Shown piece by piece: positions 2,574 to 12,019 of a DNA stretch of 43,856 bases. This DNA comes from Lachnospiraceae bacterium UBA3821. GTDB lineage: Bacteria > Bacillota > Clostridia > Lachnospirales > Lachnospiraceae. The notes below the pieces were generated by a model. It ran no database searches, was not told where the DNA came from, and worked only from the letters and a program-made list of their open reading frames with translations. Location of the stretch: the NCBI GenBank assembly GCA_002368865.1, contig DFDT01000130.1, forward strand, positions 1 to 43,856. The letters are read 5' to 3'. The position numbers were made by a program, and so were the translations under genes. Numbering within the stretch: the first letter of the stretch is position 1; each line of letters starts with the position of its first letter.

Positions 2574-3314
2574 TCACTGCACAACAGTACTGATCACAAT
2601 ATTTTCTGCGGGAATGCCTGTTTTCCTCTTAACAATATCCTCAATCTGGGCGCGCTGTACCTCATTCAGAGAAGTCGCGTTCACCACCACATCCACCATA
2701 TCGTCTGCAATACTCACCACCACGTCCGAGAAGCCTTTCGCTTCCAACAGGATCTCCGCAGCCGATTCCTTCTCCGCTGTCACAGTCATCTCCACCATGC
2801 TGTCCACCGCATCCTGCTTCTGCTCGTCGCTCAAGCCGTCACTGCCTATGATCTGCATTAGCGTCTCTTTGTTTTTTGCCCTGGTCTGTTCTTTCAAAAG
2901 CTTTGCATCCGACAGCACCGCCACGCCATCCGACGATGTGAAGACCGCTTCCCCCGGGATCTCACCGGCCTCCGGCGTCACCTCTGCGATCTGCATGTCA
3001 CTGTCCAGATAATCGTCCATGATCACATCCGCATCCGTATCCAGACTCTCAATCTCCGTCAGGCCGGCTGAGAGCAGATCGGTTTCCGACAGATCCAACA
3101 GCCCGTTCAGTTCCGCGCTGTCACTCAGCTGCTCGGAGGTGTAGTTTTCCGTGATCACGCCCGAAGAATTCGCCGCGCTGTACAATTCTCCGTCCTCCAC
3201 CGTCAAATACTCCTCTTCCAGGTTGGTGCCCGCAAATTGCAGATATCCTGCAATGGCGATCATAACTGCCAGCGCGGTGATCATCAGTTGGTTCTTTTTC
3301 ACTAAATTTTTCAC
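2574..3314 (-). CDS. spoIIIAH: Stage III sporulation protein AH
   Basis: SpoIIIAH sits in the mother-cell engulfing membrane. Its extracellular domain binds forespore SpoIIQ, forming the channel that feeds the developing spore. The 246-residue product has one N-terminal membrane segment (about residues 10-27, ending YLQFAG). A long acidic linker follows, then a C-terminal mixed alpha/beta region typical of the ring-building (EscJ/PrgK-like) fold in this family. The start is GTG at 3314, with AGGGAG 6 nt upstream. It is the last gene of the spoIIIA operon, 54 bp after spoIIIAG. The acidic linker is long and low in complexity, as is common in clostridial versions. Confidence 0.93.
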   Translation of the reverse strand: MKNLVKKNQLMITALAVMIAIAGYLQFAGTNLEEEYLTVEDGELYSAANSSGVITENYTSEQLSDSAELNGLLDLSETDLLSAGLTEIESLDTDADVIMDDYLDSDMQIAEVTPEAGEIPGEAVFTSSDGVAVLSDAKLLKEQTRAKNKETLMQIIGSDGLSDEQKQDAVDSMVEMTVTAEKESAAEILLEAKGFSDVVVSIADDMVDVVVNATSLNEVQRAQIEDIVKRKTGIPAENIVISTVVQ

Positions 3315-3368: not shown

Positions 3369-4001
3369 TCATTGTATGAGACCTGTCTGCAATATATGCT
3401 TGTTTCCCATCGGAAGTACTTTCACTCTGTGCGCCTCCACGCCGAAAAGCGCCTGCGCTGCCTCCGTGATACTGCGGTTCACCTTTCCGTCGCCCGCGCC
3501 TTCCGCGATCACAAGTACGCCCTCCACCCGGGGATACAGAATCTTCGTCACAAACGGCTCCCCCTCTTTGTTCTGGTACACGGTACTGTCCCCTTTTTCA
3601 TACTGTGTGACAGACCGGGTTCCTCCTTCGCTGTCCTGCTCTACGGTACTGGAACGCGAGATCGGCTCATCCTTCTCAACCACCTGCTCTTCAGAAGACA
3701 CAAACGTGAGCATCACCTCAACCTCTCCTACATTTTCCATAGCGGACAATAATCTTTTTAACTTCTCCTCCTGAACGGTCTCGTAATCCATGGACCCACT
3801 GCCGTCCTTTTCCGTGGTCTCCTCCTGTATCACCCGTTTTTCCGAAATGCTTTCCTTCGAACTGCTCTCTCCCGATGAGCCCTCCTCCTTTTTTACCGGG
3901 AGCGCTATCACAAACAATAAAATCCCGGCCAATACCATAATGATCAGATTCTCTCTTTGAAACCACTTTTTCCACAGGCTCAGCCAATCAATCTTTTTCA
4001 T
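3369..4001 (-). CDS. spoIIIAG: Stage III sporulation protein AG
   Basis: SpoIIIAG is a ring-forming component of the mother cell-forespore secretion-like channel. The 210-residue product has a basic cytoplasmic start (KKIDWLSLWKKW), one membrane segment around residues 19-36, then a Ser/Glu-rich linker and a C-terminal globular domain containing GVLVIAEGAGD. That last motif is very typical of the family. The ATG at 4001 has a strong GGGAGGAAG site and overlaps the end of spoIIIAF by 14 bp, indicating translational coupling. The position between AF and AH is the conserved order. Confidence 0.94.
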   Translation of the reverse strand: MKKIDWLSLWKKWFQRENLIIMVLAGILLFVIALPVKKEEGSSGESSSKESISEKRVIQEETTEKDGSGSMDYETVQEEKLKRLLSAMENVGEVEVMLTFVSSEEQVVEKDEPISRSSTVEQDSEGGTRSVTQYEKGDSTVYQNKEGEPFVTKILYPRVEGVLVIAEGAGDGKVNRSITEAAQALFGVEAHRVKVLPMGNKHILQTGLIQ

Positions 4002-4377
4002 TTTCTTCCTCCCCCAACACGACAGGCTCGATCTTCACCCGGTCAATCTTATCCACTTCCACTCCCTCTATGTCCTGATTTCCCTGCCTGGTCTCAGCAG
4101 ACGCCGCTTCCTTCGGCACTGCCTCATCCTGTTCCGTCACAGATGTCCCGATCACTTGCAGCTGCTCCTGAAACCATTTTATCCGCTCCTCCAGGCTTTC
4201 CTCTCCTGTTCCTGTCAGAATATGGCCAATCGGCAAAACAAGCTGAATCAGAATCATAGCGCTGAGCAGCATTTTCAGATACTTCTCGTAAGAGCCATTC
4301 GGTCTGCAGTGAATCAATGTCTGCGCGCAGATCACAAAAACACCGATCCTGCAGACTGCCGTCATCCAGTTTGTCAT
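3988..4377 (-). CDS. spoIIIAF: Stage III sporulation protein AF
   Basis: This is a small membrane protein of the SpoIIIA channel complex, with two N-terminal transmembrane segments (about residues 3-20 and 34-52) and a hydrophilic, acidic tail of about 75 residues. I place the start at the ATG at 4377 (MTNWMTAV), 16 nt after the spoIIIAE stop and with a GGGGG ribosome site. A longer in-frame reading to 4431 would overlap spoIIIAE and add a hydrophilic stretch not expected before the first membrane helix. The 129-residue length is shorter than the roughly 200 residues of the Bacillus protein because the C-terminal soluble domain is reduced and mostly charged. Confidence 0.88.
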   Translation of the reverse strand: MTNWMTAVCRIGVFVICAQTLIHCRPNGSYEKYLKMLLSAMILIQLVLPIGHILTGTGEESLEERIKWFQEQLQVIGTSVTEQDEAVPKEAASAETRQGNQDIEGVEVDKIDRVKIEPVVLGEEENEKD

Positions 4378-4393
4378 AGCATCTACGCCCCCT

Positions 4394-5452
4394 TCATAAA
4401 CCTTTATTTGTGGCGATTGCAATGATCGCAATGGAGATCAGAAACAATAACATCGCCGTCCCTGCAAGCCGGAACAGAAAAAATGCACCGTTTCCCACCT
4501 GATCCGCGCAGGTTGTGATCCGCTTGTTGCTGACAATTCCCATAAGCGCCGCGGCAGCCTTCAGCATAAATGCAGTCAGACCTATTCGAAACAACGGTGT
4601 CAGGCATAAAAGGCACAGGAGGATCAAAAGCCCCAGCCCCATACTGTTTTTGATCACAACAGCCGATCCCACCGTAAGCTTCATCACTCCTTCCGCGGCA
4701 TCTCCGACTCCGGGCAGCGCTCCCATGGTCTTTTGTACAATTGTATTTTGAAAAGAATCCAGCACCGGCGTCAACACGGACTGAAAAACGCTGAGACCCG
4801 TCACGATCCAGACGGAAGCCTTTAGCACGCCTCCGATGATCTTCTCAAGAAATTCCATAAACAATGTCAGCTTCTCCTCGATCCAGATACCGTTGACAAC
4901 GGCCAGCAGGCAATAGCTGTATATCAGGGGAAGTATCACGCCGCTCAAGATCTCCTGCACGATGCAGAGCAGGATCAGCATAAACTGATAATAGCTTCCC
5001 GCTGTCACAGCCCCCGCCGCAACTCCCACCGCCATCAGATATGCCGGTATTAAAAGCCGGCTGAACAGAACAATATTTTCCATGACATGCGCGGTCTGAT
5101 CCATCGTCTGCGAAAAACATTTCAACAGCACGGTACTCATCAATAGATAGATAAAATAAAAACTCAGATCGGCCACCTGATGCTTGTCAAATACTTCCAC
5201 AAAATGTCCCACCAGCGCTGACATCACCCCCAGTACCACTAACCACACAAAAACATTTTTTATTCCTTCGGTGCTCCCCGCCATCTCCCTGATTCCAAGC
5301 TGCAAATAGTCCGATAACACGCCCAGTACATCCCCCTGGAGCAGACGATGCATCAGTTCGGAAAAGGAGATATCATATGCGGGAAACAGCCTGTCCATCT
5401 CATTCTGTAGCTGCCCGAACCCATACTCCTCCCAAATCGTTTCCACATCCAT
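4394..5452 (-). CDS. spoIIIAE: Stage III sporulation protein AE
   Basis: SpoIIIAE is the large polytopic membrane protein of the SpoIIIA complex. I see at least seven hydrophobic segments across 352 residues, and the central GALPGVGDAAEG-type sequence and the C-terminal membrane helix are family hallmarks. The ATG at 5452 has GGGGGAG 8 nt upstream, and an in-frame TGA lies 24 nt further up, so the N-terminus is complete. It starts with a hydrophilic, acidic segment (MDVETIWEEYG) and lacks the cleavable signal-like segment seen in the Bacillus subtilis protein (about 399 residues). It is 29 bp from the spoIIIAD stop. Confidence 0.94.
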   Translation of the reverse strand: MDVETIWEEYGFGQLQNEMDRLFPAYDISFSELMHRLLQGDVLGVLSDYLQLGIREMAGSTEGIKNVFVWLVVLGVMSALVGHFVEVFDKHQVADLSFYFIYLLMSTVLLKCFSQTMDQTAHVMENIVLFSRLLIPAYLMAVGVAAGAVTAGSYYQFMLILLCIVQEILSGVILPLIYSYCLLAVVNGIWIEEKLTLFMEFLEKIIGGVLKASVWIVTGLSVFQSVLTPVLDSFQNTIVQKTMGALPGVGDAAEGVMKLTVGSAVVIKNSMGLGLLILLCLLCLTPLFRIGLTAFMLKAAAALMGIVSNKRITTCADQVGNGAFFLFRLAGTAMLLFLISIAIIAIATNKGL

Positions 5453-11234: not shown

Positions 11235-11330
11235 TTATGGGTAAATCCCTGTAATCTTTGCCAGAAGTTCCTCCAGGTCTTTATTTTTCTTATGGGCATT
11301 CCGTATATCCGGCAAATGTAAGCCAAACAT
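11235..11330 (-). CDS. Small ORF of 31 residues with a strong ribosome site
   Basis: The ATG at 11330 is preceded by GGGAGGAG at good spacing and the frame ends at TAA (11235-11237). The product begins MFGLHLPDI and is amphipathic, with KKNKDLEELLAKI looking helical. It has no recognised family. The strong ribosome site in an otherwise gene-free 415-bp gap is the only evidence that it is translated; it lies downstream of the tRNA-like element on the same strand. Confidence 0.35.
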   Translation of the reverse strand: MFGLHLPDIRNAHKKNKDLEELLAKITGIYP

Positions 11331-11438
11331 AAATCTCCTCCCAAATTTCCGTCAAAATCCCCGTTCCCACCCTCGCAGCCGCAGTTAATGTCCGGTAATA
11401 AAGATAACGATCACAATACAATCATACGTTTTTGGGGC

Positions 11439-11551
11439 ATAACAATCCTAAGGGGATTCGAACCCTACGCCTGCCCTTTGGCGCACCATGAGGGACGACT
11501 TGCGCTGTCGCCTGCGTTGACATTCACCCCGCTGCCGCTACCGACTATAAT
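11439..11551 (-). ncRNA. Candidate structured RNA with tRNA-like fold (YrlA/Y-RNA-like shape)
   Basis: On the minus strand this 113-nt segment begins 7 nt after the DIP1984-family stop. By hand I can fold: a closing stem ATTATAGTC (11543-11551) with GATTGTTAT (11439-11447), one mismatch and two G-U pairs; an inner ACGC/GCGT helix (11514-11517 with 11467-11470); a 6-bp hairpin GGCGAC/GTCGTC (11494-11512); a hairpin within 11474-11494 closed by CCCT/AGGG and TGG/CCA; and a T-arm GGGTTCGAATCCC (11453-11465) with a textbook TTCGAAT loop. There is no anticodon arm or CCA-adjacent acceptor of normal shape, so it is not a tRNA gene. Length and T-arm fit bacterial Y-RNA-like tRNA mimics; family membership is inferred. 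Confidence 0.5.
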
Positions 11552-11557
11552 TCTCTA

Positions 11558-12019
11558 TTATTCAAGCTCTACCAGTTCAGTATTCCAGTTGGTCTCCTGC
11601 AGCTTGTTATCCAACTTCCGGAGTTCCTTCGCCATTCTGTCGATCTGGGACTGCCACTTTGTGACTTCAATAGTGGACTTCACCTTGATTTCCGAACCTC
11701 TTGCGCGATATGCTGTCTGGCTTGCCGTACGCACCAGATCCTTGTAAATAGAAATTTTTAATGTCAGCGCATCCTTTCTTGCGATCAATTCTGTCATCGT
11801 CTGTCCGTCCACAAGTGTACTGCAGTTGGTAAGATTGATCTTGGAGATCAATTCCGCCAATCTGGCGATTGCAACATCCAGCTCTTTCTTCAGTTTCTCC
11901 GGATTTTCCGCCGATTTCTCACCCTCCTGCACCAACATATTGCTGTTCAGGCGGCTTTTCAGCTGCTCAATATTTCTGTTCAGATCCGCTCGCTCCTGTA
12001 ATGCTTCTGCCAGTTTCAT
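11558..12019 (-). CDS. DIP1984-family protein
   Basis: The 153-residue protein matches my memory of the DIP1984 family. It opens MKLAEALQERADL, with a charged, largely alpha-helical, coiled-coil-like N-terminal half (NRNIEQLKSRLNSN). A conserved centre INLTNCSTLVDG and an Arg/Lys-rich helical end containing TAYRARGSEIK follow. No catalytic motif is obvious and the biochemical function is unknown. The ATG at 12019 has GGAGGAAGG upstream; an in-frame extension to 12055 lacks a ribosome site. Its mRNA continues straight into the tRNA-like RNA element, which suggests a protein-RNA pair. Confidence 0.75.
   Translation of the reverse strand: MKLAEALQERADLNRNIEQLKSRLNSNMLVQEGEKSAENPEKLKKELDVAIARLAELISKINLTNCSTLVDGQTMTELIARKDALTLKISIYKDLVRTASQTAYRARGSEIKVKSTIEVTKWQSQIDRMAKELRKLDNKLQETNWNTELVELE

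Follow-up and report, generated by a model that had tools for sequence, protein, structure and literature searches.

A conserved, pseudoknotted RNA paired with DIP1984 genes in four bacterial phyla

Directly behind the DIP1984 gene of Lachnospiraceae bacterium UBA3821 lies an element that we take to be a new class of structured RNA: conserved, multiply pseudoknotted and paired with DIP1984 over four phyla. The window, that is the whole stretch of DNA analysed, is 43,856 nucleotides long (contig DFDT01000130.1). With a probability of roughly 0.7, positions 11352–11546 specify a conserved pseudoknotted RNA, likely a stable noncoding RNA, that is bound by DIP1984 as a ribonucleoprotein (RNP). Sequence comparison establishes that the element pairs almost exclusively with DIP1984 and that it matches neither Ro, nor tRNA, nor any known RNA family. 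The literature searched yielded no report of a DIP1984-associated RNA element. If true, the DIP1984–RNA particle would be a previously undescribed RNA–protein particle, and it would be a new RNP type, as an earlier preliminary description of this DNA had put it conditionally. It would also give DIP1984, which is found in 340 Acinetobacter plasmid records, a first rational functional hypothesis.

The window gene is a clear member of the DIP1984/DUF6847 family. Its product matches Pfam DUF6847 (PF20935) with 163.4 bits against a cut-off of 27 and NCBIfam DIP1984_fam (NF038048) with 176.6 bits against a cut-off of 70, in both cases over the whole length. The neighbouring genes encode a carbonic anhydrase, a GNAT protein and a 1-phosphofructokinase. 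The AlphaFold model of the protein (pLDDT 96.4) has a short pair of strands besides its four long helices, and its sole clear structural match is 3kdq, a PDB entry of its own family with the same fold. Residues invariant in all 33 sequences of a protein alignment (A1) include A6, L7, R10, Q31, N65, E110, R134, Q141, N144 and W145, and no recognisable active site was seen among the residues invariant in these sequences. Conserved polar residues combined with the lack of a recognised active site suggest that DIP1984 suits the role of a binding protein. The label septicolysin, attached to DIP1984 on some Acinetobacter plasmid records, was discarded: nothing found here supports a lysin.

DIP1984 loci were gathered from the genomes of relatives (61), from one genome per species (36 loci), from 398 phylum genomes, from plasmid and phage records and from viral contigs. 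When the sequence behind the DIP1984 stop codons is read, the same landmarks recur across loci. Forty sequences were aligned with MAFFT on sequence only, and this alignment (A3) is the basis of the structure counts and of model R1. In the window, the element starts 11 nt past the DIP1984 stop codon and comprises the following parts.

11558–12019, minus strand: DIP1984/DUF6847 gene for a 153-aa protein, the likely partner of the RNA element
11352–11546, minus strand: whole RNA element, ∼195 nt, matched by R1 with 162.4 bits, a score that is not independent, the window copy being one of the 40 rows from which R1 was built
11538–11542, minus strand: conserved 5' GGUAG, whose GGUA could pair with UACC at 11394–11397, without covariation
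11529–11538, minus strand: closing stem P1, 5' strand, pairs with 11375–11384
11375–11384, minus strand: closing stem P1, 3' strand, pairs with 11529–11538
11519–11524, minus strand: stem P2, 5' strand, pairs with 11387–11392
11387–11392, minus strand: stem P2, 3' strand, pairs with 11519–11524
11514–11516, minus strand: pseudoknot PK1a, 5' strand, pairs with 11503–11505
11503–11505, minus strand: pseudoknot PK1a, 3' strand, position placed by eye on the sequence
11507–11512, minus strand: hairpin PK1b, 5' strand, pairs with 11494–11499
11494–11499, minus strand: hairpin PK1b, 3' strand, pairs with 11507–11512
11480–11484, minus strand: hairpin P4, 5' strand, pairs with 11467–11471
11467–11471, minus strand: hairpin P4, 3' strand, pairs with 11480–11484
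11473–11476, minus strand: GGGC in the P4 loop, PK2 5' strand, pairs with GCCC at 11435–11438
11435–11438, minus strand: GCCC, PK2 3' strand, pairs with GGGC at 11473–11476
11453–11465, minus strand: tRNA-type T-arm GGG-UUCGAAU-CCC, with three G-C pairs in the window copy
11358–11374, minus strand: G-rich 3' tail GAGGGUGGGAACGGGGA, conserved, apparently unpaired

The preliminary description had rightly recognised a structured element at this place and had misjudged its borders: the segment that it delimited is the 5' half, stopping ∼45–65 nt short of the 3' strands of P1 and P2, and the element reaches ∼11352. Its T-arm with TTCGAAT is found at 11453–11465, and its two further hairpins correspond to 11494–11512 and 11467–11484. 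The 'end-closing stem' and the 'ACGC/GCGT junction helix' of that description fall outside the fold supported by covariation, as the bases concerned belong to the first pseudoknot and to P4. Beyond the 3' end of the RNA, a 31-codon open reading frame with a GGAGG site was noted by eye (11235–11330, minus strand); two close relatives (L009, L010) have a similar reading frame start (MFG...) 3' of the RNA, again by eye.

Covariation at other DIP1984 homologues, by which the earlier account was prepared to stand or fall, is present: in A3, 39 of the 48 proposed pairs vary on both sides, the two pseudoknots included. Paired cells make up 81.0% of the total, compared with 66.5% after shuffling, a value reached by 0 of 500 shuffles, and they fall to 35–40% when the partners are slid by 1–3 columns. 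The covariation score is 0.434, against 0.197 for shuffled and at most 0.112 for slid partners. Four of the five measures in the shuffle control were reached by none of the 500 shuffles and the remaining one by 2. Taking the A3 figures helix by helix, the outer and the inner four pairs of P1 are 95–96% paired, all with both-side changes, and the two middle pairs, where length varies, 49%; P2 is paired in 96.3% of cells, with both-side changes in all six pairs. For the pseudoknots the values are 82.4% in PK1a (both-side changes in 3/3 pairs), 75.8% in PK1b (5/5) and 90.0% in PK2 (3/4). P4, a region in which the alignment is length-variable, is paired in 63.2% of cells and shows both-side changes in 4/4 pairs. 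The inner P6 hairpin reaches 72.3%; the outer part of P6, at 44–49%, has no support in A3, and P0 (GGUA/UACC) displays zero covariation there. Thermodynamic folding by itself carries no signal: for a 128-nt piece covering the part first described, z was +0.30, with 125 of 200 shuffles folding equally well. The comparative evidence establishes a fold made of a two-part closing stem, two pseudoknots, P4 and a T-arm.

The conservation is unevenly distributed over the parts. The tail GAGGGUGGGAACGGGGA is among the most invariant columns of A3. The T-stem columns are filled in 36 of the 40 rows and are 96.5% paired in those; one further peculiarity is a cyanobacterial copy (L075) with filled T-arm columns and a loop that is not of the T type. 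The T-arm is absent from L017, L025, L030 and L031, in which the remaining fold is kept. The T-arm is thus a dispensable module. In copies from Acinetobacter and Psychrobacter, closing stems and GGGCGAGU persist, but neither a 5' GGUAG nor a T-arm or G-rich tail was seen.

The preliminary description had attached a structured RNA to the DIP1984 gene of the window, and this attachment turns out to be general. In a set of 79 loci spanning four phyla, 78 have an R1 match no more than 1.5 kb from DIP1984, usually directly 3' of the gene; the set has some redundancy, as L061 and L062 are apparently second fetches of L014 and L015 and the L086 element is identical in sequence to that of L080; L066, also counted, has a stop inside its DIP1984 gene. 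The sole locus without a match is L084. Altogether 88 sources were scanned with R1, of which 79 hold a full-length DIP1984 gene. Left out were L007, L072 and L073, below the family cut-off; L069–L071, partial DIP1984 matches, although L071 does carry the RNA; L043, with the gene cut by the contig end; L088, a 27-residue match; and L116, an RNA locus. Outside the model, 38 of 39 loci match R1, the weakest with an E value of 2.3e-4 (L079), several of the 39 being close relatives or near copies of model members. The lineages concerned are Bacillota (Ruminococcus, Flavonifractor and others, with Flavonifractor plautii ATCC 29863 and Ruminococcus flavefaciens FD-1 as culturable carriers), Actinomycetota (L076, L077, L082, L083), Cyanobacteriota (L075) and alpha- and gamma-Pseudomonadota (L074, L078–L080). 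No other gene accompanies the RNA so consistently: among the largest clusters of open reading frames, DIP1984 occurs in 58 of 68 loci and the next families in at most 7, and cross-lineage neighbours are limited to a sigma-factor-like reading frame in 5 loci and a 499-aa one in 3.

The distribution over whole genomes tells the same story. DIP1984 exceeds its cut-off in 28 of 398 phylum genomes and the RNA is present in 26, all of them among the 28 (Fisher 8.9e-39), although one of the 26 (G262) has only a C-terminal piece of the DIP1984 gene. The two carriers without the RNA are G342, where the DIP1984 match (36 bits) covers half the model, and G444, with a broken gene. Scanning the 370 phylum genomes without an over-cut-off DIP1984 returned no RNA match, in a scan that could miss lone, diverged RNAs because R1 derives from DIP1984-adjacent copies, some of them in these same genomes, and because six candidates per genome were scored under strict filters. 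Among the 61 relatives, RNA and DIP1984 are both found in the same six genomes. Such co-occurrence demonstrates a link in function rather than contact. L123 contains a second DIP1984 gene that is decaying and lacks an adjacent R1 match; by eye, it is followed by an apparent decaying RNA without tail.

Together, the covarying, knotted fold and the recurrence of the pair in four phyla make it likely that DIP1984 and the RNA form an RNP. The most serious competing explanation, in our judgement an unlikely one, is that the element acts in cis, as a part of the DIP1984 mRNA that protects its 3' end or mediates autoregulation, with no separate RNA. Its position fits, the gap between stop codon and element being a few to ∼50 nt on the same strand in most loci, and several loci have a ribosome-binding site and a further gene beyond the element. 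The order is nevertheless reversed in L003 and L004, where the RNA lies upstream of DIP1984, and extra copies are detached from the gene. L012 has a tandem duplication of the final DIP1984 codons together with the RNA (∼3461–3924), the second copy having altered hairpin and T-arm sequences, and L013 has two R1 matches at the same places; L063 holds two copies (1952–2150 and 2919–3117) ∼770 nt apart with one reading frame between them, which looks like that of an AbiEi-type antitoxin; and in L085, a viral contig of 178 kb, DIP1984 is accompanied by copies at 3994–4185 and 4795–4990, 0.5 and 1.3 kb behind the gene. Downstream genes vary between lineages, and a protective 3' stem would seem not to need unpaired bases and pseudoknots that are kept across four phyla. 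A simple scan, which picks up doubtful cases too, found a terminator-like hairpin followed by a T-run after 34 of 68 elements; those of L017, L025, L033, L036, L041, L047 and L065 are convincing, others not. L047 also has a T-box leader at 629–843 on the minus strand, below the Rfam gathering score (70.7 versus 93, E 8.5e-14). Upstream placement, detached extra copies and terminator-like hairpins favour an RNA product over a mere 3' UTR. We consider it improbable that the pair is a selfish or addiction module, with the RNA as the antitoxin or immunity part of a toxin–antitoxin or plasmid-keeping system. The patchy spread of DIP1984 (28/398 genomes), its carriage on plasmids (369 of 72,556 records, 340 of them from Acinetobacter), the two RNA copies on the viral contig and, by eye, the decayed second gene with decayed RNA in L123 would be expected of such a module. 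On the other hand, most loci contain a single RNA unit and not a repeat array, the pair shares an operon with rtcB and rtcA in Acinetobacter, and 3kdq, the one clear structural match, belongs to the family itself and is no toxin, a point of limited weight as a missing match proves little.

Descent from a known RNA was the other line of explanation. It is very improbable that the element belongs among the true relatives of Ro–Y RNA (YrlA), its Ro gene having been replaced, even though it has a T-arm, an end-closing stem with an internal loop and, in Acinetobacter, a place in an rtc operon. Membership of YrlA, a family whose resemblance the preliminary description had pointed out, found no backing: a search of the genome of the window (G000) with RF02553 (YrlA, 114 positions) gave nothing at E ≤ 0.001, and at E ≤ 10 the whole of Rfam gives, within 11250–11600, a single 13-base chance match on the other strand. 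The element is longer (195 versus 114 positions) and pseudoknotted. No Ro gene lies beside it, as already stated in that description, and TROVE was not found in G000, a 70% complete genome. TROVE partial matches occur in two of the 28 DIP1984 genomes (G159 and G401), ∼61–62 kb and 438 kb from DIP1984; in both, RF02553 gives a weak match at a distance of ∼1 kb from TROVE, below the cut-off and of a kind also seen in 7 of 14 control genomes. Being near TROVE and far from DIP1984, these matches suggest that the YrlA/Ro and DIP1984–RNA systems are separate. The last candidate, the remnant of an integrated element in the form of a degenerate tRNA gene or attachment site, had been suggested by the perfect T-loop sequence and is refuted: ARAGORN reports no tRNA or tmRNA gene and Rfam no tRNA match in the window, and the fold is kept with compensatory changes in 40 sequences. 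Resemblance to tRNA is confined to the T-arm, which is absent from at least 4 of the 40 copies; no acceptor stem was seen next to it. Other Rfam searches concur: release 15 has no match over the gathering score in the window, the only match in 19 relative loci is one ordinary tRNA outside the element, and at E ≤ 5 no match falls on the element in five loci.

As to what the RNP might do, the mechanism that we propose starts with an RNA transcribed together with the DIP1984 gene. The helical DIP1984 protein would hold it in the closing-stem region, the T-arm would serve as a tRNA-like handle, presumably also as a possible TruB substrate, and the free G-rich tail may be the part that meets a target. 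Such a particle would act in the quality control or repair of RNA, probably tRNA, under stress. This function is a tentative suggestion, arising from the Ro–Y RNA analogy and from the location of the Acinetobacter pair between rtcB and rtcA, and it is the weakest step of the argument. On the Acinetobacter plasmid p2VB280821 (L079) the order is ribonuclease, rtcB, a gene without Pfam match, DIP1984, RNA and rtcA; CAKLQH020000004.1 (L145), also from Acinetobacter, has the same order plus a divergent rtcR in front. With aroA and pepD in addition to the rtc operon on its 232 kb, the latter is probably a contig of bacterial origin, despite its label 'Acinetobacter phage'. The R1 match in the Acinetobacter rtc records is weak (20.2 bits) and the tail is missing. 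Among 366 matching plasmid records, none but L079 itself contains the greater part of the Acinetobacter rtc stretch, and on the Acinetobacter plasmid pAB0057 DIP1984 adjoins znuD2. RtcB is not enriched in RNA-bearing genomes (18/26 versus 210/372, p = 0.22), which argues against a general dependence on RtcB and makes RNA repair only a lead; among the RtcB matches listed for the 28 DIP1984 genomes, none is near the DIP1984 gene. With no enrichment or proximity elsewhere, and other Acinetobacter copies located elsewhere, the repair link comes from two records of one genus. More speculative again, and doubtful in our view, is a portable RNP machine unrelated to Ro–Y, RNase P and tmRNA, in which the RNA would be the working part, the T-arm gripping tRNA-like substrates and the G-rich tail being presented, and with which cells, some phages and plasmids would sense, shield or mend damaged tRNA. 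This would account for Acinetobacter keeping the pair inside an rtc operon. The partner gene, the solved structure 3kdq and the RNA-repair operon context make the function testable at once.

Few structured RNAs of such complexity span phyla to our knowledge, namely RNase P, tmRNA, 6S, SRP and raiA, and most phylum-spanning complex structured RNAs have basic functions. In length, in its two pseudoknots and in its occurrence in Bacillota and beyond, the DIP1984 RNA resembles raiA/ModT (RF03072), described in PMC11706538 as ∼210 nt long, with two pseudoknots and distributed over Bacillota and another phylum. Identity with raiA was rejected, as there is no sequence–structure match either way: RF03072 has no match in G000 or in the control genomes, the same search having matched in 3 of 15 genomes elsewhere, and R1 yields only two matches of 2.6–3.0 bits over three loci from the raiA search, the raiA of G421 not being found. 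Genome G421 holds both RNAs, 627 kb apart. The closest parallel is provided by Ro (Rsr) and its Y RNA/YrlA, a system that likewise combines a small RNA bearing a T-arm and an end-joining stem with a dedicated adjacent protein gene. The Salmonella operon rsr-yrlBA-rtcBA, as presented in PMC7790460, places Ro and Y RNAs in an rtc operon, so that both systems are met with in rtcB/rtcA operons, YrlA in Salmonella and the DIP1984 RNA in Acinetobacter. The components themselves differ: DIP1984 is of a four-helix type in its AlphaFold model and not a TROVE protein, and its RNA is set apart from YrlA by greater length, two pseudoknots and a G-rich tail. By analogy, the DIP1984 RNP is likely to work somewhat like Ro–Y RNA without being one.
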